This document shows positions 729 to 16,260 of a DNA stretch of 64,000 nucleotides, piece by piece (positions within the stretch are counted from its first letter, which is position 1; each line of letters starts with the position of its first letter). Under the pieces are notes generated by a model. That model was not told where the DNA came from, did not search any database, and saw only the letters and a list, made by a program, of their open reading frames with translations. Where the stretch lies: contig NZ_JARWAC010000016.1 in assembly GCF_029846175.1 (NCBI RefSeq), positions 310,001 through 374,000 on the forward strand, in the 5' to 3' direction. The translations under genes were made by a program, and so were the position numbers. The DNA comes from Sphaerisporangium sp. TRM90804 (lineage in GTDB: Bacteria; Actinomycetota; Actinomycetes; Streptosporangiales; Streptosporangiaceae).

Positions 729-2003
729 GTGGGCATCGCCGCCGCCGTCGCCGCTCTGGGCGAGGAGCCGCTCGACTGGCGCTTCAAGGCCGCCCCCGTC
801 CGTGCGCACGGCGCAGCGCCGACCGTGGGGGAGTACCTCGCCACCCGGCCGCGGCTGTCCGGGCTGGGCACCCCGCTGCTGACCCTCGACGGCTCCGCGC
901 TCGACCACAACATCGCCACGATGGCCGCCTGGGTGGAGCGGGCGGGCGCCTCGCTGGCCCCGCACGGCAAGACCACCATGGCGCCGGCCCTGTGGCGGCG
1001 CCAGCTCGCCGCCGGGGCGTGGGGGATCACGCTGGCGAACCTGCCGCAGCTCCGGGTCGCGCGGTCCTTTGGCGTCGGCCGCCTCATGCTCGCCGGGAGC
1101 CTGCTCGACCCTGCCGGGCTGGCGTGGGTGAGCGCCGAGCTGGACGCCGATCCCGGCTTCTCGTTCACCTCCTGGGTCGACTCGGCCCGCTCCGTGCAGA
1201 TCATGGACGCCGCGCTGCGCGAGGCGGGCGCCGGCCGTCCGGTCGACGTGTACGTCGAGCTGGGCGGGCCCGGCGGGCGCACCGGCGTGCGGGAGGACGA
1301 CGAGGCCGTCGCGCTCGCGGAGGCCGTCCGCGCCGCCCCCACCCTGCGGCTCGCCGGCGTGGCCGGGTACGAGGGCGCCCTCGCCCACGACACCTCGCCC
1401 GCCGGCCTCGGCGCGGTCGACGGCTTCCTGCGGCGGCTGGCGGCGCTGCACGAGCGGGTGACCTACGAGGTGGACGAGCCGGTCGTCACGGCCGGCGGCA
1501 GCTCGTACTTCGACCAGGTGGTGGAGGTCCTCGGGCCGCTGGACGCCCGCCTGGTGCTGCGGTCGGGCGCGTACGTCATCCACGACGACGGCTTCTACCG
1601 CGAGTTCTCGCCCTTCTCCCGGGGTGCCGGGCCCGCGCCGCTGCGGTCGGCCATGCACGGGTGGGCCCGGGTGATCTCGCGCCCGGAGCCCGGGCTCGCG
1701 CTGCTCGACGCCGGCAAACGCGACCTGCCCTTCGACGAGGGGCTGCCCGAGCCGCACGCCGTGCGGGGGCGCGGCCGTTCCGGAAGCGAGCCGGCCCTGC
1801 GCGGCGCCCGCGTCACCGCGGTCAAGGACCAGCACACCTTCCTCACCCTCGATCCCGCCTCCGACCTCGCCTGCGGCGACGTGCTCCGGCTCGGCCTGTC
1901 CCACCCCTGCACGGCGCTCGACAAGTGGACGCTGATCCCCGTCGTCGACGACTCCCTCGCCGACGACCCCGAGGTCGTCGACCTCGTCAGGACCTACTTC
2001 TGA
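729..2003 (+). CDS. PLP-dependent D-amino-acid deaminase (D-serine/D-threonine lyase-like, alanine racemase fold)
   Basis: This 424-residue cytoplasmic enzyme belongs to the fold-type III PLP group that includes D-serine dehydratase and D-threonine aldolase. The PLP lysine is visible in LAPHGKTTMAP. Further family motifs are ELGGPGGRTGV, AGVAGYEGALAH, the TAGGSSYFD phosphate-binding region and a C-terminal metal/PLP barrel with SHPCTALDKW. I chose the GTG at 729 because GAGAGGAGG sits a few bases upstream; the frame is open further left but that part reads as low-complexity noise antisense to the LLM gene. The neighbour is an N-acyl-D-amino-acid deacylase, so a role in releasing and then deaminating D-amino acids is likely. 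The exact substrate (D-Ser, D-Thr or other) is not resolved. Confidence 0.85.
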   Translation: MGIAAAVAALGEEPLDWRFKAAPVRAHGAAPTVGEYLATRPRLSGLGTPLLTLDGSALDHNIATMAAWVERAGASLAPHGKTTMAPALWRRQLAAGAWGITLANLPQLRVARSFGVGRLMLAGSLLDPAGLAWVSAELDADPGFSFTSWVDSARSVQIMDAALREAGAGRPVDVYVELGGPGGRTGVREDDEAVALAEAVRAAPTLRLAGVAGYEGALAHDTSPAGLGAVDGFLRRLAALHERVTYEVDEPVVTAGGSSYFDQVVEVLGPLDARLVLRSGAYVIHDDGFYREFSPFSRGAGPAPLRSAMHGWARVISRPEPGLALLDAGKRDLPFDEGLPEPHAVRGRGRSGSEPALRGARVTAVKDQHTFLTLDPASDLACGDVLRLGLSHPCTALDKWTLIPVVDDSLADDPEVVDLVRTYF

Positions 2004-2022
2004 TGCCCCCCGGGCGCCTCTG

Positions 2023-3636
2023 ATGCCCGGCGGGCGCGTCTTCCGCGGGGCCACGGTCGCCGACGGCAGCGGCGCGCCGTCGTACCGGGCGACCGTCACC
2101 GTGGCCGGGGGGCGGATCGCCGAGATCACGCCGGAGCGGCCCGGCGCCGCGCCGGGCGGGCCGGGGGACGTCGACGCCCGCGGGCTCGTGCTCGCGCCCG
2201 GCTTCGTCGACATGCACTCCCACTCCGACCTCGCGCTGCTGTCGGAGCCCGCCCACCTGGCCAAGGTCGCCCAGGGGGTCACCTGCGAGGTGCTCGGGCA
2301 GGACGGCCTGTCGTACGCGCCGGTGGACGACACCACGCTCGCGCAGCTCCGCAGGCAGATCGCCGGCTGGAACGGCGACCCGGAGGGGTTCGACTGGGAC
2401 TGGCGCTCGGTCGCCGGCTACCTCGACCGGCTCGGCCGCGGCATCGCCGTCAACGCCTGTTACCTGGTCCCGCAGGGGACGGTGCGGATGCTGGTGATGG
2501 GCTGGGACGACCGGCCGGCCACCCCGGCCGAGCTGGCGGAGCAGAAGGCGATCGTCGCCCGGGCGATGGCCGAGGGCGCGGTCGGCATGTCCAGCGGCCT
2601 CACCTACACCCCCGGCATGTACGCCGGCACCGCCGAGCTGGTGGAGCTGTGCCGGGTCGTCGGCGAGCTGGGCGGCTACTACTCCCCGCACCACCGCTCG
2701 TACGGCGCGGGCGCGCTGGAGGCGTACGCCGAGATGGTGCGGGTGTCGCGGGAGTCGGGCTGCCCGTTGCACCTGGCCCACGCGACCATGAACTTCCCCG
2801 TCAACCGGGGCAGGGCCGGGGAGCTGCTGAGCCTGATCGACGACGCCGTGGCCGGCGGCTGCGACATCACGCTGGACACCTACCCGTACCTGCCTGGCTC
2901 GACGACGCTCGCCGCGCTGCTGCCGGGCTGGGCGTCCGAGGGCGGCCCCGACCACACCCTCGCGCGGCTGCGCGACCCGGCGACGGCCGAGCGCATCCGG
3001 CACGTGATGGAGCGGGAGGGCTCCGACGGCTGCCACGGTGTGCCGGTCGCGTGGGAGACGATCCAGATCTCCGGCACCCGCTCACCCGCCCTCGGGAGCC
3101 TGGTGGGCGCCACGATCGCCGCGCTGGCCGCCCGTACGGGGCGTCCACCGTTCGAGGTGTTCCGCCGCCAGCTCCTGGACGACGGCCTGGGCACCACGAT
3201 CCTGCAGCACGTCGGGGACGAGGAGAACGTCCGGGCGATCATGCGGCACCCGGCGCACACCGGCGGCAGCGACGGCCTGCTCACCGGCGCCCGGCCGCAC
3301 CCCCGCGCCTGGGGCACCTTTCCGCGTTACCTCGGCCGCTACGTCCGCGACGAAGGCGTCCTGACGCTGGAGGAGTGCGTGGCCCACCTGACCGGCCGCC
3401 CCGCCCGCCGCCTCAAGCTGGCCGGCCGCGGCCTGGTGCGCCCCGGCCACCACGCCGACCTGGTGCTCTTCGACCCCGAGACGATCGGCGACACCGCCAC
3501 CTTCGACGACCCGCGCCGCACCCCCGCGGGCGTCCACCACGTCCTGGTCAACGGCGTCCCCGTGATCGAGTACGCCACCCCCACAGGCGCCCTCCCCGGC
3601 CGCCCGCTACGCCACACCCCCACCGGCACCCGCTGA
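2023..3636 (+). CDS. N-acyl-D-amino-acid deacylase (D-aminoacylase), amidohydrolase superfamily
   Basis: The 537-residue amidohydrolase hydrolyses N-acyl-D-amino acids to free D-amino acids. Metal-binding HSHSD follows VLAPGFVDM near residue 62, the usual place after the N-terminal beta-domain. SSGLTYTPGMYA, HLAHATMNFP, DTYPYLPGSTTL, the GGSDG Asp region and the C-terminal PGHHADLVLFDP motif match D-aminoacylase/DAN family members in order, and length is normal. The start is the second of two near-identical TGATGCCC junctions: the ATG at 2003 overlaps the previous stop but terminates after six codons, whereas 2023 is in frame. It is probably translationally coupled to the deaminase. The last coding bases and stop form the first copy of a downstream tandem repeat. 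Confidence 0.88.
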   Translation: MPGGRVFRGATVADGSGAPSYRATVTVAGGRIAEITPERPGAAPGGPGDVDARGLVLAPGFVDMHSHSDLALLSEPAHLAKVAQGVTCEVLGQDGLSYAPVDDTTLAQLRRQIAGWNGDPEGFDWDWRSVAGYLDRLGRGIAVNACYLVPQGTVRMLVMGWDDRPATPAELAEQKAIVARAMAEGAVGMSSGLTYTPGMYAGTAELVELCRVVGELGGYYSPHHRSYGAGALEAYAEMVRVSRESGCPLHLAHATMNFPVNRGRAGELLSLIDDAVAGGCDITLDTYPYLPGSTTLAALLPGWASEGGPDHTLARLRDPATAERIRHVMEREGSDGCHGVPVAWETIQISGTRSPALGSLVGATIAALAARTGRPPFEVFRRQLLDDGLGTTILQHVGDEENVRAIMRHPAHTGGSDGLLTGARPHPRAWGTFPRYLGRYVRDEGVLTLEECVAHLTGRPARRLKLAGRGLVRPGHHADLVLFDPETIGDTATFDDPRRTPAGVHHVLVNGVPVIEYATPTGALPGRPLRHTPTGTR

Positions 3637-3800
3637 CGCCTGCCGGGCGTCCCTCGAAGGCGAGCCCGGCCGCCCTGCCGCCACATCCCCCATCGCACCC
3701 GCCGCCCCTGCCGGGCGTCCCTCCAAGCGAGCCCGCCGCCCTGCCGCCACATCCCCACCGCACCCGCTGACGCGTGTCGGGCGTTCTCGAAGTACGGCCG
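3612..3800. repeat. Tandem repeat, about 66-69 bp, nearly three copies, over the stop of the deacylase gene
   Basis: Copies begin at 3612, 3681 and 3747, each starting CCACAYCCCC, followed by a GCACCCG block, a CGGGCGTCC block and CGAAG or CCAAG. Copy 1 contains the last codons and TGA of the deacylase. Copy 3 is truncated and more diverged. The repeat fills the gap to the convergent MarR gene. No function is evident. Confidence 0.8.
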
Positions 3801-3872
3801 GCGGGGCTGACGGGCCCCGCTCGCTGTTGGAGCCCGGAGCTCCTTGGCGGGCCTGGGCGAGGGCGCGTGAGC

Positions 3873-4376
3873 TCAGGCGTCCTCGTCCTGCGCCGGGAGG
3901 CGTCCGGCCTGGGGGAGGCCGTCGAAGTCGGGGTTGCCGAGGATGGCGCGGAAGATCTCGCGCACCTGACCGGCCTGCTCCGGGGTGAGCCGGTCGAACA
4001 GCACGCGGCGCACCTGCTCGACGTGGCCGGGGGCCGCGGCGGCCAGGGCGGCGAAGCCCTCGTCGGTCAGGGTGGCGACGGTCGTGCGGGCGTCGCCGGG
4101 CTTCTTGCCCCGGCGCACCCAGCCCTGCCCTTCCAGCCGGGCCGCGGCGTGCGAGAGCTTGCTGGCCGACGATCGCACCAGCCGCGCCAGGTCGGTCATG
4201 GTCATCGACCGGCCGGGCGCCTCGGACAGCATCGCCAGGATCAGGTAGTACGTGTGCGGCATCCCCGAGTCGCGCTGCAACTGCCGGTCGAGCGACTCGT
4301 GCACGAGCTGGGAGCCCCAGATGAAGGCCCGCCACGTCGCCTGCTCGTCGTCGTCCAGCCACCGCGTCTCGCCCAC
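3873..4376 (-). CDS. MarR-family transcriptional regulator
   Basis: This 167-residue winged-helix protein has the MarR layout: N-terminal dimerisation helix, then MTMTDLARLVRSSASKLSHAAARLE (given as its two blocks MTMTDLARLV and SSASKLSHAAARLE) as recognition helices, the wing GWVRRGKKPGDARTT with its conserved Asp-Ala-Arg, and C-terminal dimerisation helices. The start is GTG at 4376. A TAGGAT -10 element lies six bases upstream on the same strand, so the mRNA is probably leaderless. A dyad immediately upstream is a plausible autoregulatory operator. Nothing adjacent identifies its ligand; the neighbours are the D-aminoacylase gene (convergent) and a FUSC-type membrane protein upstream on the same strand. 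Confidence 0.88.
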   Translation of the reverse strand: MGETRWLDDDEQATWRAFIWGSQLVHESLDRQLQRDSGMPHTYYLILAMLSEAPGRSMTMTDLARLVRSSASKLSHAAARLEGQGWVRRGKKPGDARTTVATLTDEGFAALAAAAPGHVEQVRRVLFDRLTPEQAGQVREIFRAILGNPDFDGLPQAGRLPAQDEDA

Positions 4377-4382
4377 GCCCCG

Positions 4383-4411
4383 ATCCTAGCGACTTGATTG
4401 AGCATTCAAGT
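4383..4411 (-). promoter_or_regulatory. MarR-gene promoter with dyad operator
   Basis: A 20-bp imperfect palindrome at 4392-4411 has outer half-sites ACTTGA and TCAAGT, typical in shape for MarR operators. TAGGAT at 4388-4383 reads toward the GTG at 4376 with a 6-nt gap, consistent with leaderless transcription. Binding would cover the -35 region. Confidence 0.6.
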
Positions 4412-4732
4412 GTGGCGGGGGTCCGGACCGTTCCGCCCCTGGAAAGCGCGCCGAAAACATCTTTGCCGAGGACCGCGACCGGTTGGCCTCATGCCGCGAA
4501 CCGCGCCGGCAGAAGGGTGATCCACCGGCCGGACACGGCGAAAGCCCAACGGCGCTTCAACCCGATACCGGGGATGCCGCCGAACGCCGCCCGGCCCGTT
4601 GGACGCACTGCGGTGGCCCCTGCCCCGCCGCCCCGGTGCCTACCCTTCGGCGCCGCGACGGCGAGCGGTGGTGCGGCGAAGGCGGCGCCGTCCTACGCCG
4701 CTCGACCCGGCGGACGTGCGGTGGGCACCGCT
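4412..4732. other. Gene-free interval between FUSC gene and MarR promoter
   Basis: No open frame here has convincing codon use, start site or recognisable protein. I see no strong hairpin or promoter beyond the MarR operator at its left edge. Confidence 0.5.
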
Positions 4733-5875
4733 CTAGTCGGGGTCGGGGACCGGCGAGGGGGTGTGGGACGGGGGGAGGGCGGCGGTGGCGGTCTGGCGGT
4801 CGGTGCCGGTGGCCACGAGGAGGTCGACGGCGATGGAGCGGAGCTGGGCGGTGATCACATGGGTGGAGAAGCCGTCGTCCGGGTCGAGCACGCCGCGGAT
4901 CTCCTCGGCCACGGCGAATGCCGCTTGGCGGGCGCGGACGGGCTCGGCGCCCGCGCCCAGCTCGTCGCGGAGCAGGCGGGCCGTGTCGGCCAGGCCGCGC
5001 AGGCGGGCGGGGAGGTCGTGGCGCATCGGCTCGCGGTCGCGCATCGCCGCCAGCGTGCGCCGCAGCAGCACCCGGGTGTTGCGCAGGGCGTGGTCCACCG
5101 GCGTCGCCGCGGCCTGGTAGCGGCGCAGCCTGGCCCGGGCGTTCCAGCGCAGCGGGCTCAGGACGGCGATCTCGCGTCCCGCGAGCAGGGCGGCCCTGAG
5201 GTCCTCGACCGCCTTCTGCGAGCCGCGCACCTTGTCCAGCGCGTCGGCGGCCAGCGTGATGTCCTGCGCCGCGATGGCCTCCGCCGCCCCCTCCAGCGCG
5301 TCGGCGAGCTCGTCGAGCACCACGCGCGCGTGCCGGTGCGCGAGCGCGATCGGGTTGGCGGGCAGCAGCGCCACGGCCGCGATGCCGATGACGCCGCCGG
5401 TCAGCGCGTCCACCATGCGGTCGAGCCCGCCGCTGCCGGTCGGCGGCAGCAGCGTGGCGACCAGGACCGCCGACGACCCGGCCTGCAGGACGATGACCTG
5501 GCCGCTGTCCAGGAGCACTGCCGCGGCCATCGCCAGCGCCACGACCAGAGCCAGCTGCAACGGCCCCGAGCCGATGCGCAGCACCAGCAGGTCGCCGACG
5601 CCCACGCCGACGCTGACCCCGGCCACCATCTCGGCCATGCGGCGGACCCGCCGGCCGAGGGCGACCCCGATGCAGATCACGACCGCGATGGGCGCGAAGA
5701 ACGGCCGCGGGTGGTGCAGCAGGTCCTTGGCCACGACCCACGCCAGCGCCGCTGCGGCCGCGCACTGGAGGATGGAGGGGGCCATCGTCGCCAGCCTTCT
5801 CAGCCGGCCGCCCATGCTGTCTCTGAAGGTCATCGCCCGTTTCACGCCGAATACGCTCACCGGCATCATAACCAT
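4733..5875 (-). CDS. FUSC-family (aromatic acid exporter-like) integral membrane protein
   Basis: The 380-residue protein begins with a short basic cytoplasmic stretch, then closely packed hydrophobic segments between about residues 35 and 175 (AAAAALAWVVAKDL, FFAPIAVVICIGVALG, LQLALVVALAMAAAVLL, GGVIGIAAVALLP). A long helical cytoplasmic half rich in Arg, Ala and Leu follows. FAPIAVVICIG followed by GRRVRRMAEMVAGVSVG is the FUSC/ArAE signature. These proteins are linked to efflux of aromatic acids or fusaric acid. The ATG at 5875 is preceded by GAAAGG; an internal ATG at 5833 lacks a ribosome site. No partner efflux subunit is nearby, as is usual in Gram-positives. Substrate unknown. Confidence 0.72.
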   Translation of the reverse strand: MVMMPVSVFGVKRAMTFRDSMGGRLRRLATMAPSILQCAAAAALAWVVAKDLLHHPRPFFAPIAVVICIGVALGRRVRRMAEMVAGVSVGVGVGDLLVLRIGSGPLQLALVVALAMAAAVLLDSGQVIVLQAGSSAVLVATLLPPTGSGGLDRMVDALTGGVIGIAAVALLPANPIALAHRHARVVLDELADALEGAAEAIAAQDITLAADALDKVRGSQKAVEDLRAALLAGREIAVLSPLRWNARARLRRYQAAATPVDHALRNTRVLLRRTLAAMRDREPMRHDLPARLRGLADTARLLRDELGAGAEPVRARQAAFAVAEEIRGVLDPDDGFSTHVITAQLRSIAVDLLVATGTDRQTATAALPPSHTPSPVPDPD

Positions 5876-6102
5876 CGCCTTTCACCCAGCCTTCGGCGCG
5901 AAGCACCACGGCACGGTGGCGCACAGCAGCCGTCCACAGCCGCCGAAGGACCGGGTGGAGCGGGGCGGGGTGATCGGTCGGCCTTACACCTCACCGTGTC
6001 CGGCTGGTGTTCGGCGCGGCGATGCCCACCGTCCCTTCGCGAACCGAGGGCGGGTGCCCGGTGGGGGAGGGGCGCCCTTGGGGAAGGTCTGCCGGAGGGC
6101 GG

Positions 6103-6996
6103 TCAGGGCAGGACGCGGCCGATCACTCGGGCGTACATGCGGCCGGGGCTGGGGACGGCTGGCGGGGTGAGGAAGCCGGGGAGCATGGGGAGGTCGACGG
6201 CGAAGGGGAGCAGGCTCTCGTACAGGGCGCTGGCGTCCGGGGGGCGGTTGTCGGGGTCCTTCTCCAGCAGGGCGCCGATGAGGCGGTCGAGGTCGGCGGG
6301 GACGCCGGGGATCCGCGGCGGGCGCTCGTTGACCTGCTTGTCGAAGACGGAGTACTCCGTCGGCCCGGCGAAGAGCTGTCGTCCGGTCAGCATCTCGTGC
6401 AAGACGCAGCCGAGCGCGTAAAGGTCGCTGCGGGGCCCCGCCACGCCGCGCTGGATCTGCTCGGGGGACATGTACGCCGGGGTGCCGAGGATCTGGCCCA
6501 CCCGGGTGAACTGGGCGACGTCCGCCTCCCGCAGCATGGCCAGCCCGAAGTCGAGCACCTTGGCGCCGCCGTCGGGGCACAGCATCAGGTTGGTCGGCTT
6601 GAGGTCGCGGTGACAGATCGAGAGCGCGTGCGCGGCCGACAGCACCGCGCAGGCCTGGGCGCCGATCGCGGCGGCCCAGGGCACCGGAAGCGGGCCGTGC
6701 TCGCTCACCAGGTCGGCCACGGTGACGCCCTCGATGAACTGCATGATCTGGAACAGCCGCTGGTCGTGGGTGCCGAAGTCGTACAGGACCGGCGCGCCGG
6801 CGTGCTCCAGCCGGGCGAGGATGCGGGCCTCGCGGACGAACCGCCGCTCCAGCTCCTGGTCGTGCCCGCCGGGGAAGCGCAGGAACTTGACGGCGACCCT
6901 GCGGTCGAGGTGGGTGTCGTGGCCTCCGTAGACCGCGCTCATGCCGCCTTGGCCAAGCGGCAGTTCGTCAAGCACGTAGCGGTCGCCGATCACCAT
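6103..6996 (-). CDS. Soluble Hanks-type Ser/Thr protein kinase
   Basis: The 297-residue protein is essentially a bare kinase domain. It has the Gly-rich loop GQGGMSAVYGG, VAVKFLR with ATP lysine K37, catalytic HRDLKPTN with D131, metal-binding DFG with D149, and the activation-segment end GTPAYMSPEQ. There is no transmembrane segment or sensor domain, so it acts in the cytoplasm on unknown substrates. The start is ATG 6996, with AGGAGGG just upstream. It lies 76 bp downstream of, and co-directional with, the DNA methylase gene; a PP2C phosphatase is divergent on the far side of the methylase. That arrangement suggests reversible phosphorylation linked to the methylase, which is inference. Confidence 0.88.
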   Translation of the reverse strand: MVIGDRYVLDELPLGQGGMSAVYGGHDTHLDRRVAVKFLRFPGGHDQELERRFVREARILARLEHAGAPVLYDFGTHDQRLFQIMQFIEGVTVADLVSEHGPLPVPWAAAIGAQACAVLSAAHALSICHRDLKPTNLMLCPDGGAKVLDFGLAMLREADVAQFTRVGQILGTPAYMSPEQIQRGVAGPRSDLYALGCVLHEMLTGRQLFAGPTEYSVFDKQVNERPPRIPGVPADLDRLIGALLEKDPDNRPPDASALYESLLPFAVDLPMLPGFLTPPAVPSPGRMYARVIGRVLP

Positions 6997-7072
6997 TCGC
7001 CCTCCTGGAGATCTACCGGAAGATACCCCACCCCTCATGGGCCGAGATCGCCCCCGCCGCCGCGCGCCCGGA

Positions 7073-9028
7073 TCAACGCGGATCGGCCGGTCGTCCGCCG
7101 GGCCCGAGGTGGCCGTCGACCAGGCCGGCCAAGCCCGCCCTGACCAGGCTCTCGCCCAGGGCGGCGGTCTCCCGCAGCGCGTCCTGCAGGGCCTGCAGCT
7201 CGCGGAACGCGGCCCCGTAGGCCCGCTGCTCGTCCAGCGACAGCCTGGGGATCCGCGCGCGGCGCGCGTCGACGCGGCTGCCGCCGCCGGGATGCGACCG
7301 GTTCGCCCCCGAGACGCCGGCGAAGCGCAGGCATCCCGCCAGGAAGTCGGGGTCCAGCCGGTCGGGGTCGACGCGGTAGAGGTGCAGGTGGGGCCCGAGC
7401 ACGGCCCCGCCCTCTGTGACGGCGCGCGCGGCGCCGTCCAGCGCGGTGACCGCGGCCACGACGTCCCCGGGCTCCAGGGTGACCAGCCCCGGGCCGGGTG
7501 ACGTGCGGCCCGTGGGCGGCCCGCCGCGCGTGAGGTCGCCCGAGGTCAGCACCGGCACCTCGCCGGTGTCGACGGCCAGCTTGGGCGGCCCCTGCAGGAC
7601 GGTGACCAGGCCCGCCCTGACCAGCTCGGCGACGCTGGCGCTGGGCAGGTCACGCCCCCGGGGCAGGACGGAGAGGTCGGGTGCCGCGCCGGTGAGCGAG
7701 ACGGTCGAGGCGCGGAACCGGTCGCGCAGCGCGCCGAAGCCCGGCTCGGCGTCCTCGCCGGCCCGGCGCGGGCGGTGCCGGGCCGGGGTGAGGTCGACCT
7801 CGTCGTCGAGCAGGTCGATGATGCGCACCGCGCGACTGGCGCCCGGCAGCGCGGACTCCGGGTCGGCCGAGAAGGCGCGCCAGGCCGGCTCGACGGCCGC
7901 GAGGTCGTCGGCGGCGTCCATCATCAGCACCACCGAGGGCGGGCGCGCGCCCGGCTCCGGGCGGCGCAGCAGCCACAGGTCGGGGCCGCCCGGCGCCAGC
8001 GCCACCACCGCCCGCAGCGCGCCCGCGCGCAGCAGGTTGCCCCGGATGCGCTTCCCCGCGCGCCGGCCGGCCGCGGCGGCCGGCATGAGGACGGCCACCA
8101 GGCCGCCGGGCCGGGCGTGGGCGAGGCAGTGCTGCACCCAGGCCAGCTCCGGCTCGCCGCGCGGCGGCAGGCCGTACTCCCAGCGCGGGTCGCCGGTCAG
8201 CTCCTCGTAGCCCCACGCCCGCTCGTTGAACGGCGGGTCGCACAGCACCACGTCGGCGCGCGCGCCGGCGAAGCCGTCGTGCCGCAGGGAGTCGCCGGCG
8301 ACGACACGCGCGGGGGCGTCGCGCAGCAGCAGCCGCACGGCGGTCAGCACCGCGGCCGTCTCGCCGAGGTCCTGCCCGAGAACGCCGGTGGCCCGGCCGG
8401 CGAAGGGCACCAGCAGGGCGCCGACGCCGCAGGCCGGGTCGAGGACGGTGCCGCGTTCGGGGCCGGCCAGCCGCGCCATGAGGCCGGCCACCTCGGGGCG
8501 GGTGACGGCGAGCTGCCGCGAGTGGGCCTCGGCGTAGCGCTCGCACAGCAGCTCGAAGGCGGCGAGCGGCCCCTGGTCCGCGGCGAGGTCGGCCAGGAGG
8601 CGGAACAGCCGCGCGTCGATCGGCCGCAGGTCGACCGGCCCGGGCAGGTCGCTGGTGGCCGTCGCCGCGGCCTCGCGCAGACGCGCGGCGGGGTCGGGGC
8701 CGCGCGCGATCTTCTGCCAGCCGTCGGGGTCGCGCCGCAGGTACAGCAGGAACGTCCCGGCGCCGGCGACGAGCTCGCCGAGCCGGAGGTCGTCGCCCGC
8801 GGCGCGCAGCCGCTGCCAGACGCGGTCGCCGGGCGACATGGCGTACTGCTTGCCGTTGCGGCGCAGCCAGGCCTCGATCTCGGGAAGGGAGAACAGCGGG
8901 CTGGCCGCCGTACCGCCGACGGGCTGGGGGAAGTCGTCGTGGCGGCGGCGCCAGTTGCTCACGGCCGCGCGGCCGACGTCGGCGAGCCGGGCGATGTCGC
9001 CGGCGTTCAGCGTGGCGTCGTGTCCCAT
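7073..9028 (-). CDS. HTH - N6-adenine DNA methylase - HsdS-like specificity domain fusion
   Basis: The 651-residue protein starts with a helix-turn-helix-like segment (DIARLADVGRAAVSNWRRRH). It continues into an HsdM-type methyltransferase domain with motif I DPACGVGALL at about 197-206 (AdoMet binding) and motif IV DPPF at about 264-267. The DPPF replaces the commoner NPPF/NPPY. The C-terminal third (LPSASVAELV, VPVLTSGDLTRG, LEPGDVVAAV, then a helix ending LVDGHLG) resembles a type I HsdS target-recognition half. It would modify adenines in DNA; no nuclease or HsdR subunit is fused or adjacent. ATG 9028 has only GGGAG 13 nt upstream; a GTG at 9055 is an alternative. It probably shares an mRNA with the downstream kinase. 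Confidence 0.8.
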   Translation of the reverse strand: MGHDATLNAGDIARLADVGRAAVSNWRRRHDDFPQPVGGTAASPLFSLPEIEAWLRRNGKQYAMSPGDRVWQRLRAAGDDLRLGELVAGAGTFLLYLRRDPDGWQKIARGPDPAARLREAAATATSDLPGPVDLRPIDARLFRLLADLAADQGPLAAFELLCERYAEAHSRQLAVTRPEVAGLMARLAGPERGTVLDPACGVGALLVPFAGRATGVLGQDLGETAAVLTAVRLLLRDAPARVVAGDSLRHDGFAGARADVVLCDPPFNERAWGYEELTGDPRWEYGLPPRGEPELAWVQHCLAHARPGGLVAVLMPAAAAGRRAGKRIRGNLLRAGALRAVVALAPGGPDLWLLRRPEPGARPPSVVLMMDAADDLAAVEPAWRAFSADPESALPGASRAVRIIDLLDDEVDLTPARHRPRRAGEDAEPGFGALRDRFRASTVSLTGAAPDLSVLPRGRDLPSASVAELVRAGLVTVLQGPPKLAVDTGEVPVLTSGDLTRGGPPTGRTSPGPGLVTLEPGDVVAAVTALDGAARAVTEGGAVLGPHLHLYRVDPDRLDPDFLAGCLRFAGVSGANRSHPGGGSRVDARRARIPRLSLDEQRAYGAAFRELQALQDALRETAALGESLVRAGLAGLVDGHLGPGGRPADPR

Positions 9029-9103
9029 CGGCGTCGGATCTCCCTGCTGTACCACGGCACCCCCAAAGCTCCCCCGGGGTCAGAGTAGTCCACCATGCGG
9101 CGA

Positions 9104-9157
9104 CGATCCACAAATTCAATGCTTGTGAAGTGTTTCAACCAATGATTTACTGAGGTC
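9104..9157. promoter_or_regulatory. AT-rich divergent promoter between methylase and PP2C genes
   Basis: This short interval is much more AT-rich than its surroundings. Rightward, TTGTGA (9123-9128) and TTTACT (9146-9151) are spaced 17 bp and lie just before the ATG at 9158. Leftward, TTGAAA with a 17-bp spacer and ATTTGT is a weaker pair. Hexamer matches are partial. Confidence 0.4.
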
Positions 9158-9895
9158 ATGTCAAACAACGTGTCGTTCACGCTGCGATACGCGGCTCGCA
9201 CCGACGTAGGCCTGCGCCGCCAGCGGAACGAGGACTCGGTGTACGCCGGCCCTCGCCTGCTCGCCGTGGCGGACGGGATGGGCGGGCACAGTCACGGCGA
9301 GGTGGCCAGCGCCACCGTCATCGCCGCGCTGTCGTCGCTGGACGGCGAACCTCCGGGCGCCGACCCTCTCGGCACGCTGGAGGTGGCGATCACGGAGGCC
9401 GGCCACCGACTGAAGGATATGGCCGGAAGCGATCCCAAGCTGACGGGAATGGGCACAACGCTGACCGCCATGCTGTGGGACGGCATGCGCTTCGCGCTGG
9501 CCCACATCGGCGACTCGCGGGCCTACATGCTGCGCGACGGCAGCCTCTACCAGATCACCCGCGACCACACGCTCGTGCAGTCGCTGGTGGACGACGGCCA
9601 GATGACCGCCGAGCAGGCCGCCGCCCACCCCCGCCGCTCCCTGCTGATGCGGGCGCTCGGCGGGAGCGGGTCGGTCGAGCCCGACCTGTCGATGCGCGAG
9701 GCCAGGGCGGGCGACCGCTACCTCGTGTGCTCCGACGGGCTGAGCGGGGTGGTGGGGCCGCAGGCGCTGCACGAGACGCTCACCGGCTTCGACGATCTCG
9801 GCGCCGCCGCCGACCGCCTCATCCAGCTCGCCCGCGACGGGGGCGGTCCCGACAACATCACCTGCGTCGTCGCCGAGGTCCCGGCGAGCACCTGA
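9158..9895 (+). CDS. PP2C-type Ser/Thr protein phosphatase
   Basis: The 245-residue soluble protein has the complete bacterial PP2C core. RQRNEDSVY supplies the N-terminal metal-binding ED pair, followed by VADGMGGHSHGE, the GMGTTLTAM strand, HIGDSRAYMLRDG, VCSDGLSGVV and the C-terminal GGPDNITCVVAEV with the last metal ligand. It would remove phosphate from Ser/Thr residues using Mn2+ or Mg2+. There is no membrane anchor. It is divergent from the methylase-kinase pair and is the natural antagonist of the kinase encoded at 6103-6996. The start is ATG 9158 with GAGG two bases upstream, so translation may be partly leaderless. Confidence 0.92.
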   Translation: MSNNVSFTLRYAARTDVGLRRQRNEDSVYAGPRLLAVADGMGGHSHGEVASATVIAALSSLDGEPPGADPLGTLEVAITEAGHRLKDMAGSDPKLTGMGTTLTAMLWDGMRFALAHIGDSRAYMLRDGSLYQITRDHTLVQSLVDDGQMTAEQAAAHPRRSLLMRALGGSGSVEPDLSMREARAGDRYLVCSDGLSGVVGPQALHETLTGFDDLGAAADRLIQLARDGGGPDNITCVVAEVPAST

Positions 9896-9986
9896 GCGCC
9901 CGCCGGCGGTCGTCCGGTGGCGTCATGTGGGGTCTACGTGGGGCCGAGTCCGTTCAAAGCCGCACAAAGCGGGTAGCCGCTCTGCC

Positions 9987-10880
9987 GTGCCCAGAGCCGC
10001 AGTGATCGCGAACCCGCTCCGAGTCCCCGACTCGGCCGCCCACCGTGCCGAGGTGGCCGCCGAGCTGGCGCGCCTCGGCTGGGACGAGCCCTTGTGGTTC
10101 GACACCACCGCCGAGGACGCCGGCGTCGGCATGACCAGGAAGGCGCTGGCCGAGGGGGTCGACCTCGTCTTCTCCTCCGGCGGCGACGGCACCGTCCGCG
10201 CCTGCGCCGAGGCGCTCATGGACACCGGGGTGCCGCTGGCCCTGCTGTTCGGCGGCACCGGCAACCTGCTCGCCCGCAACCTCGGCCTGCCCATCGGGAT
10301 CCCCGACGCGATCCGCGTCGGCGTCGAGGGCGAGACCCGGGCCATCGACGTCGGCATGCTGGACGACCTGCCCTTCGTCGTGATGGCTGGGCTCGGGCTG
10401 GACGCCGCCATGGCCGACAGCACCACCACGGAGGCCAAGCGGCGCATCGGCTGGCTCGCCTACGTGGGCGGGGTGCTGCGCCACATCGCCGACCGCCCCT
10501 TCCGCGCGACGATCCGCCTCGACGGGCGCGCGCCGATCCGCAGGCGGGCGCGCATGGTGCTGGTCGGCAACGTCGGGCAGCTCCAGGGCGGCCTTCGCCT
10601 GCTGCCCGAGGCGGCCCCCGACGACGGCCTGCTCGACGTGCTGGTGCTCACCCCGCGCACGCCGATGGACTGGCTGCGCGTGGTCGGCCACGTCGTGACC
10701 CGCTCCAAGGGGCACGAGCCGCGCGCCGAGCGCTACACCGCGTCCCGCGTCTCGATCGCCGTGAGCCCCGCCGTGCTGTCGGAGTGCGACGGCGACCCGG
10801 TCGGGCACCGCGGCGAGGTGACCGTGACGACCAGGCCCAAGGCGCTGCTGCTGCGCACGCCCCGGGAAACGGAGGACTGA
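9987..10880 (+). CDS. Diacylglycerol kinase-family lipid kinase (YegS/DgkB type)
   Basis: The roughly 297-residue protein shows the lipid-kinase ATP site SSGGDGTVRACAEAL followed by LFGGTGNLLARNLGLP, then the FVVMAGLGLDAAM region and the C-terminal beta-sandwich. This family phosphorylates diacylglycerol or related lipids at the inner membrane face, feeding phosphatidic acid. The start is uncertain: GTG 9987 (PRAAVIANPL follows) fits the family N-terminus; a GTG at 9927 would add 20 unsupported residues. It leads a tight cluster with a YihY/BrkB membrane protein and two PAP2 phosphatases, which suggests phospholipid or lipid-linked envelope metabolism. The downstream gene starts 2 bp after its stop. 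Confidence 0.85.
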   Translation: MPRAAVIANPLRVPDSAAHRAEVAAELARLGWDEPLWFDTTAEDAGVGMTRKALAEGVDLVFSSGGDGTVRACAEALMDTGVPLALLFGGTGNLLARNLGLPIGIPDAIRVGVEGETRAIDVGMLDDLPFVVMAGLGLDAAMADSTTTEAKRRIGWLAYVGGVLRHIADRPFRATIRLDGRAPIRRRARMVLVGNVGQLQGGLRLLPEAAPDDGLLDVLVLTPRTPMDWLRVVGHVVTRSKGHEPRAERYTASRVSIAVSPAVLSECDGDPVGHRGEVTVTTRPKALLLRTPRETED

Positions 10881-10882
10881 CC

Positions 10883-11905
10883 TTGAGCAGCGCGTCGAGG
10901 GTCCCCGAGACCAGGACGATGAGCGGCGAGGAGCTGAGCGCCGACGAGGCGTGGGCGACGCTGCGCAACTACGGCGGCTGGCACCTGGTGCGTGACTCCT
11001 TCATCCGCTTCAGGTACGCCGACGGCTTCAGCCACTCGCGCGCCCTGGCGTTCCAGATCTGCCTCGCCCTCATCCCGGGCGTCATCGCCGCCGTCGGGCT
11101 CAGCACCGAGCTGAAGCAACAGCGCCTCGGGGAGGCCGTCCAGCTCGCGATCCGCCACTTCAGCCCCGGCTCCGGGGAGAAGGTGATCAAGGACGCGCTC
11201 GCCGTGAGCGAGCGCCACGCCGGCGACGGCGGCGCCATCGCCCTGTGGGCGGGCCTGATCACCGCCCTGGTCGGCCTCACCACCGCCATGGCCCAGATCG
11301 AGCGCGGGGCCAACCGCATCTACGGCGTCGAGCGGGACAGCCCGGTTCTGCGCAAATACGGCAAAGCCGTGGTCATGGCCGTCACCGCGGGCTCGTTCAT
11401 GACGCTCGGGTTCGCCATCATGGTGGGAGGGAACACCGTCGGCGAGGCGTTCGCCGAGGTCTACGGCTGGGGCACGACGGCCGAGAGGGCGTGGGCCCTG
11501 CTGCGCTGGCCCGCCGGGTTCCTGCTCGCCGTGCTGTCGGCGTCCGTCCTGTTCCGCGCGGCGCCCCGCCGCAAGCAGCCGGGCCACACCTGGCTGGCCG
11601 TCGGGGCCGTGGTGTCGCTGGCGCTGTGGACGACGTTCAGCTGGGGGCTCTCGTTCTACATCGAGAACACCGACTCGTTCGGCGTGACCTACGGGCCGCT
11701 GACCGCCGTGGTCGCCCTGCTTCTGTGGTCGCTGTTCAGCTCGGTGGCGCTGTTCCTGGGGCTGGCCTTCTCGGCGCAGCTCGAAGCCGTCCGCGCCGGC
11801 CACAGCACCCCCAACAAGCCTGACACCGGCGCGCGGGAAGGCTCCGGCGAGGGGTCCGGCGACCACGCCGGGCCCGTGCCAGAGTCGGTACGGAGCGCGC
11901 CATGA
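10883..11905 (+). CDS. YihY/BrkB-family membrane protein
   Basis: The 340-residue protein has the YihY layout: an N-terminal region ending in YADGFSHSRALAFQICLALIP (SRALAFQICLALIPG is the characteristic first segment), then five to six hydrophobic helices, including ALWAGLITALVGLTTAM, AVVMAVTAGSFMTLGFA and YGPLTAVVALLLWSLFSSV. The tail is hydrophilic. The family has often been mis-called RNase BN; its real role is unknown, probably envelope transport. I chose TTG 10883 because GGAGG lies seven bases upstream; ATG 10919 has a weaker site. It sits between a lipid kinase and PAP2 phosphatases and overlaps the next gene by ATGA. Confidence 0.82.
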   Translation: MSSASRVPETRTMSGEELSADEAWATLRNYGGWHLVRDSFIRFRYADGFSHSRALAFQICLALIPGVIAAVGLSTELKQQRLGEAVQLAIRHFSPGSGEKVIKDALAVSERHAGDGGAIALWAGLITALVGLTTAMAQIERGANRIYGVERDSPVLRKYGKAVVMAVTAGSFMTLGFAIMVGGNTVGEAFAEVYGWGTTAERAWALLRWPAGFLLAVLSASVLFRAAPRRKQPGHTWLAVGAVVSLALWTTFSWGLSFYIENTDSFGVTYGPLTAVVALLLWSLFSSVALFLGLAFSAQLEAVRAGHSTPNKPDTGAREGSGEGSGDHAGPVPESVRSAP

Positions 11906-13549: not shown

Positions 13550-13664
13550 CGGACCGCCCCGCGCCCCTCGCGGGCGAACCGTCGGATCACGGCCGTAGCC
13601 TGGAGTGTGGGGGCCCGGCCGTGATCCGCACTTCGCCCGGTTCTCCCAGATGGGGCGGCGGCGC

Positions 13665-14333
13665 ATGACCAAGATCCTCGTTGTCGACGACGAACCACAG
13701 CTCCTGCGGGCGCTGCGGATCAACCTGGTGGCGCGCCACTACGACGTCGAGGTCGCCCGTGACGGCGGCACGGCCCTGCGCCACGCCGCCGGCTGGCACC
13801 CCGATCTGGTCGTGCTCGACCTCGGCCTTCCCGACATCGACGGCGTGGACGTCATCCACGGCCTGCGCGGCTGGACCAGCGTGCCGATCATCGTGCTGTC
13901 GGGCCGCTCGGGCAGCGACGACAAGGTGGACGCCCTGGACGCCGGGGCCGACGACTACGTCACCAAGCCCTTCGGCATCGACGAGCTGCTCGCCAGGATC
14001 CGCGCCGTGACCCGGCGCTCCACCGGCCACGATGCCGAGCTCGCCGAGATCGAGATCGGCGGGCGCAGCGTCGACCTGGTGAACATGACCGTCTCCGGCG
14101 GGGTGCGGCTCACGCCCACCGAGTGGCGGCTGCTGGCGATCCTGCTGCGCGACCCCGGCAAGCTGATCACCCAGCGCCGCCTGCTGACGGAGGTCTGGGG
14201 CGACGCCTACGTCAAGGAGACCCACTACCTGCGCCAGTACATGGCACAGCTCCGCCGCAAGCTCGAGCCCGACCCCGCGCGCCCCCGCCACCTGCTCACC
14301 GAGCCCGGCATGGGCTACCGCTTCCAGCCGTAG
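13665..14333 (+). CDS. OmpR/PhoB-family response regulator, KdpE-like, without an adjacent sensor kinase
   Basis: The 222-residue protein has a receiver domain starting MTKILVVDDEPQLL, with acidic pocket D8/D9, phospho-acceptor D52 (VVLDLGLPDIDG) and YVTKPFGIDELLARI lysine. A C-terminal winged helix follows (LTPTEWRLLAILLRDPGKL, RLLTEVWGDAYVKETHYLRQ, and the tail PGMGYRFQP). The THYLRQYMAQLRRKLE stretch is typical of KdpE, the regulator of the potassium-uptake operon. No kdpD or kdpFABC is in the window, so the assignment rests on sequence alone. ATG 13665 fits the domain edge; an ATG at 13650 is possible. Confidence 0.82.
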   Translation: MTKILVVDDEPQLLRALRINLVARHYDVEVARDGGTALRHAAGWHPDLVVLDLGLPDIDGVDVIHGLRGWTSVPIIVLSGRSGSDDKVDALDAGADDYVTKPFGIDELLARIRAVTRRSTGHDAELAEIEIGGRSVDLVNMTVSGGVRLTPTEWRLLAILLRDPGKLITQRRLLTEVWGDAYVKETHYLRQYMAQLRRKLEPDPARPRHLLTEPGMGYRFQP

Positions 14334-14412: not shown

Positions 14413-16080
14413 TCAGCCCACCAGCACCAGCAGGTCGTCGCGTTCGACCGCCTCCAGCGAGAGCGTCTTGTAGCCGACCTCCTCGAACAGGACGGTGACG
14501 CGGTCGGGCTCGCGGCTCATGACCACGCCCTCGCCCCACTCGGTGTGCCGCACCCCGGCGTGCAGCGGGAACGGCCCGTCGCCCGCCTTCTCGTCCGGCA
14601 GCTTCTCCTCGGCCGCGCCCGACCGGCAGGTGTCGCAGTTCCCGCAGGCCCGCTCGTGCGGCTCGCCGAAGTACTCCAGCAGCATCCTGCGCCGGCAGCC
14701 GGTCGTCTCGGCGTAGGCGCGCATCATGTCGATGCGGGACTCGTCGACGCGGCGCCGGGTCTCGTCCAGCCCCACGGCCTCGGCGGACGCCTCCTGCGGC
14801 GAGGGGCCGGCGGTGACGGCGCGCAGGTCGCCGCGGTCGGTCACCGTGACCGCCCCCACCCGCTCCAGCAGGTTCACCACGCCGGTCAGCTTGGAGGACC
14901 CGATGCCGAGCAGATCGCGCAGCTCCCGGGCCGGGACGGTGCCGCCGTGCTCGCCGACCAGCGTCGCCACGCGCAGCAGCAGCTCCTCGTCGGCGCGGCC
15001 GCCGGCGAAGAACCTGCGGATGCCGAGGTCCTCGGGCCGGTAGAACAGGACGGCGGTCGCCGGCTCCTGGTCGCGGCCGGCGCGGCCGATCTCCTGGTAG
15101 TAGGAGTCGAGCGACTCCGGCGGGTCCGAGTGCAGCACGTGACGGACGTCCTGCTTGTCGATGCCCATGCCGAAGGCCGAGGTGGCGACCACCACGTCCA
15201 GCCCGCCCTCGCGGAACAGCTCGTGCACCCGGTGCCGGTCGGCGGCCTTCATTCCGGCGTGGTAGGCCTCGGCCCGCTTCCCGGCGTCCCGCAGGGCGGC
15301 GGCGTACTCCTCGGTGGCGCGCCGCGTGGCGACGTACACCAGGCCGAGGCCTTCGCGGGACGCGGCGTCCGCGATCAGCGCGCGGCGCTTGTCCTCCTTG
15401 TCGACGAACCTGCGCACCTGGAGGTCGATGTTCGGCCGGTCGAAGCCGCGCACGACCACTCCGGCGTCCTGCAGGCCCAGGGAGGACAGGATGTCGTCGC
15501 GCACGAGCGGGGCCGCCGTGGCCGTCAGGGCCACCACCGGAGGGTGCCCGAGCCGTTCGATCGCCTGGCCGAGCCGCAGGTAGTCGGGCCGGAAGTCGTG
15601 GCCCCAGGCCGACACGCAGTGCGCCTCGTCGATGGCGATCAGCGAGGGCCGGGCCGCGCGCAGCCGGTCGATCACCTCGGGCTTGGCGAGCTGCTCGGGG
15701 GACAGGAAGACGAACTCCGCCGTGCCCGCCTTGATCTGCTCGAACGACGCGTCGCTCGTCCCGCTCGACTGGGCCGAGTTCACCGCCACCGCGCCGGCGG
15801 CGCCGGCCTCCGCCAGCCCGGCGACCTGGTCGCGCTGCAGGGCGATCAACGGCGAGACGACGACCGTGGGCCCGTCGAGCAGCAGCGCCGGGATCTGGTA
15901 GACGGCGGACTTCCCGCTCCCGGTGGGCATGACGACGAGCACGTCCCGCCCGGCGAGCAGGTGCTCCATCGCCTCCTGCTGCCCGGGGCGCAGCCGCTCC
16001 CACCCGAAGGCGTCCTTGGCCACCGCGCCCAGGCGGCGCCTGCGGCCCCGCCGCTGGAAACGCTCCCGCACCGAGATCAT
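14413..16080 (-). CDS. recQ: RecQ-family ATP-dependent DNA helicase
   Basis: This 555-residue 3'-5' helicase has the Q-motif region RLRPGQQEAM, Walker A MPTGSGKS, DEAHCVSAWGHDFRPDY (motif II plus the RecQ aromatic-rich loop), TATAA motif III and the GRAGRDQE motif VI. The RQC zinc site is CRRRMLLEYFGE followed by CGNCDTC. There is no HRDC domain; instead the end is a short beta-rich domain (VRHTEWGEGVVMS, VTVLFEEVGYKTLS), common in actinobacterial RecQ. It unwinds recombination and repair intermediates. ATG 16080 is preceded by AAGGAGAA; a GTG at 16113 is in frame but poorly supported. Confidence 0.9.
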   Translation of the reverse strand: MISVRERFQRRGRRRRLGAVAKDAFGWERLRPGQQEAMEHLLAGRDVLVVMPTGSGKSAVYQIPALLLDGPTVVVSPLIALQRDQVAGLAEAGAAGAVAVNSAQSSGTSDASFEQIKAGTAEFVFLSPEQLAKPEVIDRLRAARPSLIAIDEAHCVSAWGHDFRPDYLRLGQAIERLGHPPVVALTATAAPLVRDDILSSLGLQDAGVVVRGFDRPNIDLQVRRFVDKEDKRRALIADAASREGLGLVYVATRRATEEYAAALRDAGKRAEAYHAGMKAADRHRVHELFREGGLDVVVATSAFGMGIDKQDVRHVLHSDPPESLDSYYQEIGRAGRDQEPATAVLFYRPEDLGIRRFFAGGRADEELLLRVATLVGEHGGTVPARELRDLLGIGSSKLTGVVNLLERVGAVTVTDRGDLRAVTAGPSPQEASAEAVGLDETRRRVDESRIDMMRAYAETTGCRRRMLLEYFGEPHERACGNCDTCRSGAAEEKLPDEKAGDGPFPLHAGVRHTEWGEGVVMSREPDRVTVLFEEVGYKTLSLEAVERDDLLVLVG

Positions 16081-16260
16081 GCGCTCGTTCTCCTTCACTC
16101 GTGCCACGCTCACGCGGCCCCCGGGGAGGGGCGCGGTGAGCGGCCGGCGGCCGCGGCCGCCTGCCAGGACGGTCCCGTGCCCTGGATCACGTCGGCTACG
16201 CGCCCGCGTGGACGCCGGAACCTCCGGCGCCCGGCCGGGAATCGCGCGGGGACGTTGTGG

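Follow-up and report, generated by a model that had tools for sequence, protein, structure and literature searches.

A three-gene cluster in Sphaerisporangium sp. TRM90804 appears to be a DNA regulator controlled by phosphorylation, of a kind not described before, and not an anti-phage weapon of the classical type. The cluster lies within a 64,000-nucleotide stretch of this actinomycete's 8.3-Mb genome (contig NZ_JARWAC010000016.1, positions 310,001 to 374,000; hereafter the window, to which coordinates refer unless another locus is named). It encodes a soluble Ser/Thr kinase, a methylase-like protein fused to a helix-turn-helix (HTH) domain and to half of an HsdS specificity subunit, and a divergently oriented PP2C phosphatase. 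We assign a probability of about one half to the reading that this trio is a phosphorylation-switched DNA-binding regulator which controls its own phosphatase gene and is of defence ancestry. The computed basis for the proposal is the co-conservation of the three genes, their architecture, the domain folds of the middle protein, a recurring palindrome and an altered catalytic motif.

In the proposed mechanism the middle protein, which keeps an HsdM fold and an S-adenosylmethionine (SAM) motif, would bind DNA via its N-terminal HTH and, probably, its half-HsdS specificity domain. The dedicated soluble kinase most likely sets the state of this protein and the dedicated soluble PP2C resets it, the fusion protein being the presumed substrate of both enzymes. 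The HTH most likely binds a GTKRA-N5-TYMAC palindrome overlapping the PP2C promoter, so that the switch would control its own phosphatase, and its output would lie in DNA binding or gene control, not in restriction. An earlier note on this DNA, made by a model from the sequence, had suggested a phosphorylation-controlled modification or defence switch. The gene grouping behind that suggestion is upheld by the analysis described here, whereas its active methylase and its defence role are not supported so far.

Three genes conserved as a unit

The three open reading frames (ORFs) were confirmed as first described: kinase (6103-7038, reverse strand), methylase-like protein (7073-9055, reverse strand) and PP2C (9158-9895, forward strand), all with coding-type GC content by codon position. 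The Pfam scores were 143.1 bits for Pkinase (PF00069), 93.7 bits for N6_Mtase and 42 bits for PP2C_2. Orthologue starts correct two of the ORFs, placing the kinase start at the ATG at 6996 and that of the methylase-like protein at the ATG at 9028; the divergent intergenic region is therefore ~129 bp.

To follow the cluster through its host family, 120 genomes were searched with alignments of the kinase, the methylase-like protein and the PP2C (E ≤ 1e-130 for the kinase, E ≤ 1e-150 for the methylase-like protein). The kinase is present as a single copy in each of 43 genomes, scoring 572-653 bits. The methylase-like gene directly adjoins it in 42 of these at E ≤ 1e-150, and in the 43rd (G142) this neighbour was recovered by tblastn at 55.8% identity. 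In all 43 the PP2C is divergent, on the opposite strand at the far side of the methylase-like gene. Thirteen positive genera were sampled with two or more genomes, and in 12 of them every genome is positive; in the exception (g71), the kinase-negative genome is 78% complete and still has the PP2C and the methylase. Within Sphaerisporangium the PP2C and methylase-like genes occur in 11/11 genomes and the kinase in 10/11.

A scan of named genomes (the best 80 of more than 570 loci, pooled with fetched relatives for locus counts) gave 64 non-redundant loci with a methylase-like gene and a divergent PP2C, the kinase being present at 59 of them. Two loci (L074, L076) duplicate the genomes of L038 and L036 and were omitted from gene clustering onward (the raw figures that include them are 66 and 61). 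A further locus without upstream sequence (L123) was counted among the others although it falls inside the trio clade. The host genera include Streptosporangium, Planobispora, Nonomuraea, Microbispora, Herbidospora and Acrocarpospora; one locus titled Nocardia aurea (L085) may be mislabelled, its methylase grouping within Nonomuraea. The 64 loci also reach into the Pseudonocardiales, for example Amycolatopsis, Kutzneria and Solihabitans, and the identical divergent layout is found there in L109, L113, L125, L130, L133, L142, L146 and L148. A phylum-wide sample of 395 other genomes yielded no trio kinase at E ≤ 1e-110; this sample is sparse, since the named loci place the trio in Pseudonocardiales too.

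Clustering of all called genes found no further family in more than 18 of the 64 loci, the largest extra family (18/64) being mostly from Nonomuraea, and therefore the unit consists of three genes without an effector. The same clustering revealed no nuclease conserved beside the trio, in agreement with the earlier note. Pairwise distance matrices correlate within the trio (n = 59; methylase-kinase r = 0.83, methylase-PP2C 0.92, kinase-PP2C 0.80) and between methylase and kinase at loci lacking the PP2C (r = 0.91, n = 36).

That three unrelated genes merely sit side by side in a stable chromosomal region is extremely improbable. The flanking genes are conserved too in Sphaerisporangium, giving a syntenic chromosomal setting which would suit chance neighbours, but in other genera the trio holds together between unrelated flanks, with the same divergent layout in Pseudonocardiales loci. 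We rejected a chance neighbourhood on the grounds that 43/43 kinase loci carry all three genes. The three genes form one functional unit, and the claim of the earlier note to this effect withstood the conserved-neighbourhood check that it had itself proposed.

The kinase (6103-6996, reverse strand; 297 aa from the conserved start) is PknB-like, PknB also being the nearest among solved chains, and ends in a conserved C-terminal tail (LPxLPGF..RMYARxxGRVL). K51, H143-R144-D145 and D163-F164-G165 are unchanged across 13 orthologues; by regular expression the kinase motifs are whole in 55 of 59 trio kinases, and the remaining four each miss one of three patterns. The PP2C (9158-9895, forward strand; 245 aa) is closely paralogous to the PstP-type phosphatase of the genome (65% identity) and scores 223 bits against NF033484, below the cut-off of 230. 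All four PP2C catalytic patterns are present in 59 of 66 copies at trio-type loci. The maximum 19-residue hydropathy is 1.56 for the kinase and 0.72 for the PP2C, so neither has an obvious membrane segment, which agrees with the bare cytoplasmic kinase of the earlier note. Additional PP2C copies lie close to the trio in several genomes of the 120-genome sample, and at L045 (12863-13636) a second PP2C, ~62% identical to that of the window, is 1.3 kb from the trio.

A methylase-like fusion protein with an altered catalytic motif

The middle protein (7073-9028, reverse strand; 651 aa from the conserved start, the ORF reaching 9055) consists of an HTH, an HsdM fold and a half-HsdS domain, an arrangement that the earlier note had recognised. 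Residues 10-72 of the long ORF form an HTH_17/excisionase-like DNA-binding domain (8840-9028), residues 72-431 the HsdM-like fold with the SAM motif DPACGVG (7763-8842), and residues 434-652 a single target-recognition domain (TRD) with a coiled coil (7097-7753), all on the reverse strand. The HTH is the best-conserved stretch of the protein, with a mean identity of 94% within the genus and 76% between genera. HTH_17 is a weak match, ranking top for 5/5 N-termini tested and every time below the Pfam cut-off; the helix pattern is seen in the structure model, and the domain also matches PADLOC mad1 (E 1.1e-4). A Pfam search of the recognition domain gave no match; its HsdS-like character is backed by fold comparison and weakly by profile (E 0.005). 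The structural matches of the fusion protein include CamA and M.BseCI. Given that the full-length match to 7eew_A has a root-mean-square deviation of 27.8, the structural reading rests on the separate domain matches.

According to the available text of PMC3874165 and PMC9613975, gamma-class methylases typically carry NPP(F/Y/W) at motif IV. The window protein has DPPF at this position (8228-8239, reverse strand), and the 64 trio-type sequences comprise 56 with DPPF, 3 with HPPF, 2 with EPPF, 2 with DPPV and 1 with DPPL; NPP occurs in none. The SAM motif is DPACG in 62 of the same sequences (DPSCG and DPAAG in the other two). The wider methylase family varies as well: 30 of 54 non-trio members have NPPF and 24 do not, including 9 with HPPF, 3 with GPPF and 2 with APPF. 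A tree built quickly under LG+G4 gives the trio clade an SH-aLRT support of 100 and D at its base; within the clade, H is found in a single subclade of three members and E on two branches apart from each other, and elsewhere on the tree the residue is H, G, A, V or S. A paralogue in the window's own genome (L054) carries EPPF next to a true HsdM with NPPF.

Because motif IV is altered while the SAM motif, HTH and recognition domain are retained, there is reason to doubt catalysis in the family, and for the trio it is unproven. Methylation appears improbable, on sequence grounds, in the HPPF and EPPF trio lineages, where the kinase is kept in four of five loci. An N-to-D mutant of EcoKI (N266D) reportedly lacks activity. 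More tentatively, the HTH-HsdM-half-HsdS family may have lost its catalytic Asn repeatedly, giving rise to defence-derived 'pseudo-methylase' regulators of transcription or of the chromosome that would bind a DNA site and SAM and read their own palindromic operator, with occupancy written by the kinase and erased by the PP2C.

A solitary clade of the same family has no kinase that we could find beside the methylase. It comprises eight HTH-methylases (L057, L058, L059, L060, L061, L062, L067 and L112, the last with its methylase at 2620) from several Sphaerisporangium genomes and one Planotetraspora, and 8/8 have HPPF. To judge from the motif, these are likely to be catalytically dead, conserved DNA-binding proteins.

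The trio protein could alternatively be an active orphan methylase, modifying adenines (or cytosines) within one fixed motif while the kinase and PP2C set the number of modified sites; this would be regulated epigenetics with a logic like that of Dam, CcrM and CamA. The SAM motif is nearly invariant, the Asp of DPP is present in 59/64 sequences, the TRD is unswapped, and the genus-level conservation is as expected for orphan methylases, 57% of which are conserved against 9% of restriction-linked ones in the available text of PMC4752239. This alternative nevertheless strikes us as doubtful, given the departure from the gamma-class motif (PMC3874165), the repeated change of its first residue across the family and the HPPF (3/64) and EPPF (2/64) loci that mostly keep their kinase. 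The adenine methylase activity claimed in the earlier note is accordingly unsupported so far, some lineages with the whole trio carrying HPPF or EPPF in place of DPPF.

Across 2016 trio pairs the lowest TRD identity is 0.34, with a swap-type collapse in none; among non-trio family members with a core identity of 0.4-0.7, between 25 and 66% of pairs (by identity band) fall below a TRD identity of 0.35. The simplest reading would be that trio proteins have a fixed DNA target. The trio is an old, mostly vertically inherited cluster, since its presence is near all-or-none per genus and its specificity domain is never swapped.

A palindrome over the putative phosphatase promoter

The shared AT-rich promoter region described in the earlier note is apparent: positions 9100-9157 are 59% AT, compared with 27% for the window, and 125 of 63,941 58-mers are equally rich. 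By consensus, this region contains a putative leaderless PP2C promoter (9123-9151, forward strand: TTGTGA, a 17-nt spacer, TTTACT and 6 nt to the ATG), overlapped by a candidate palindromic operator, GTGAAgtgttTCAAC (9125-9139; GTKRA-N5-TYMAC). Across 64 aligned intergenic regions the promoter block is near-invariant with few exceptions; it stops 6-8 nt short of the PP2C start, and is centred on GTGAA-N5-TCAAC, whose middle bases vary.

A perfect GTKRA-N5-TYMAC lies within 250 nt upstream at 61/64 PP2C-methylase loci, at 20/53 other family methylases, at 2/737 unrelated genes of the same loci and in 30/3000 random 250-mers; loci with less than 100 nt upstream were omitted, and the comparison is descriptive, the pattern having been fixed after inspecting the sequences. 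The palindrome goes with the methylase family, not with the PP2C, which makes the fused HTH its natural candidate reader. With up to three mismatches allowed, the window's genome contains a single copy of the extended 23-base site.

Rex was considered as a regulator of the PP2C promoter, as the Pseudonocardiales copy in L130 resembles the Rex consensus. It was rejected given that the extended site is unique in the genome and that the palindrome pattern tracks the methylase family.

Relatives of the trio and a possible defence ancestry

The same methylase family is paired elsewhere with longer kinases, some having TPR repeats. Within 7 kb of the 54 non-trio loci, with Pfam run on representatives, we found a kinase of the group at 33, a UvrD-type helicase at 16, HsdR at 9 and a helicase-MZB pair at 4. 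Among 35 other kinase matches in the window's genome, the nearest to the trio kinase (220.5 bits) belongs to a paralogous methylase cluster on contig C14. As relatives pair likewise and the nearest paralogous kinase adjoins a paralogous methylase, methylase and kinase move as a module. Relatives of the pair adjoin type I restriction or helicase genes, which makes a defence ancestry plausible. The trio probably descends from such methylase-kinase pairs, and looks like a variant of the module that lacks an effector and has gained a PP2C.

Several of these relatives illustrate the range of the module. The C14 cluster (L054, G000:C14:185000-204500, locus 1238-11064) encodes the EPPF HTH-methylase, the true HsdM, an HsdR-like protein and a TPR kinase, and is a type I-like restriction system with a methylase-kinase pair appended. 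In L105 (443-11265), the one member of its group annotated with Pfam, and also in L116, L118, L122 and L129, HsdM, HsdS, HsdR and a YgjP-like peptidase are followed by an HTH-methylase (NPPF) and a kinase, possibly a kinase-controlled type I restriction system. L066 (1979-8272) and L071 (2051-8287) encode very large proteins beside the methylase with an N-terminal kinase of the trio-kinase group, which in L066 is fused to a DEAD/MZB helicase (Pfam).

These relatives, together with the anti-phage activity of KKP (available text of PMC11341870) and the coupling of a methylase to a kinase in Pgl (available text of PMC4365076), are the case for the trio itself acting in phage defence or as a phosphorylation-based toxin-antitoxin. 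Like KKP or Pgl, it would then employ a kinase that is toxic when released, the PP2C as antitoxin and the DNA-binding protein as a sensor of foreign DNA. We consider this unlikely. The trio is all-or-none by genus, syntenic in Sphaerisporangium and unswapped in its TRD; no effector gene is conserved with it, and the kinase, which would be the toxin, is absent from five loci that retain the PP2C and methylase. The phage-defence role raised in the earlier note is for these reasons not supported so far, and the neighbours of the trio have only weak or housekeeping-type defence matches.

Two genes of the window outside the trio match PADLOC models. A helicase at 14413-16113 (reverse strand) has strong DpdF matches (633 bits) and is presumably an ordinary RecQ-type helicase; the first 88 residues of the product of 13605-14333 (forward strand) weakly match SduA (DUF4263; E 1.3e-7).

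Returning to the phosphorylation-switched regulator, a number of observations weigh against it. DPPF is conserved at most trio loci (56/64) and so is mostly not drifting, and the fusion protein may well methylate, as Asp can be the catalytic residue in other methylase classes. The perfect palindrome is missing in 33/53 relatives, and the mirror-tree correlations inside the trio in part reflect shared species history. The kinase is missing from five of the 64 loci (L037, L047, L087, L111 and L138), and nowhere in two Sphaerisporangium genomes (G004 and G022) is there a close kinase at E ≤ 1e-60; the PP2C-methylase pair can therefore persist alone. Conversely, in one genome (G002) a fairly close kinase (C49:40221, 333 bits) lies on a contig for which no family methylase is listed. 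Longer kinases are also found elsewhere in the genomes G064 and G118 (366 and 361 bits).

If the proposal is true, the trio would provide a Ser/Thr kinase and phosphatase with one obvious candidate as their substrate, the DNA-binding methylase-like protein; this is rare among bacterial kinases, for which targets usually have to be guessed. It would show parts of restriction systems turned into host regulators. Moreover, it would offer a small, concrete test, complete with a candidate operator, of whether phosphorylation controls DNA methylation or binding in actinomycetes that produce antibiotics.

Comparison with known systems

We found no description of a kinase-methylase-PP2C trio in the openly licensed PMC literature searched. 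A linkage of kinase, PP2C and vWA genes in actinobacteria has been reported, with no mention of a methylase in the available main text (PMC7159879).

The trio shares with Pgl the coupling of a DNA methylase to a Ser/Thr kinase, and a phosphorylation-controlled methylase state has been proposed for Pgl in the available text of PMC4365076 (for BREX systems see the survey in PMC12839542). It differs from BREX type 2/Pgl in having three genes only, one of them a PP2C. Membership was rejected: PglZ (PF08665) was not matched at E ≤ 0.001 anywhere in the window's genome, in line with its absence in the earlier note, while a control search matched in 2 of 14 named genomes, and the trio kinase scores 43.3 bits against the PglW profile NF033442, far under the cut-off of 990.

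MADS, the methylation-associated defence system, is a multi-gene cluster, and MADS-like parts were found with PADLOC for the methylase (mad2, 2.4e-20) and kinase (mad6, 1.6e-57) as well as for the HTH. In the trio these DNA-binding and methylase parts are fused in one protein, a PP2C is added and no further genes are conserved. The NCBIfam scores are far below the cut-offs for MAD2 (NF047738, 18.5 of 720 bits) and MAD6 (NF047741, 122.5 of 460 bits), and with no fourth gene family above 18/64 loci MADS membership was rejected too.

KKP, a kinase-kinase-phosphatase toxin-antitoxin, likewise combines dedicated soluble kinase activity and a phosphatase in one small unit. The trio has one kinase and not the two of the KKP definition (available text of PMC11341870), which rejects membership; it adds a methylase-like DNA-binding protein, and is conserved in chromosomes by genus whereas KKP resides in prophages.

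With type I restriction-modification systems the trio has in common the HsdM fold and an HsdS-type recognition domain, one domain rather than two. It differs in that M and half-S are fused to an HTH in one chain, that motif IV is DPPF and that the recognition domain is unswapped; HsdR is not conserved at trio loci, in contrast to its presence near 9/54 non-trio family loci.

Finally, CamA, which acts in sporulation, and other conserved orphan methylases resemble the fusion protein in the single-chain layout of M and TRD and in conservation through a genus. There is no restriction gene beside the methylase-like gene, which is kept in all 11 Sphaerisporangium genomes. To this orphan-methylase plan the trio adds an HTH, a changed catalytic motif, and kinase and PP2C genes as obligate neighbours.

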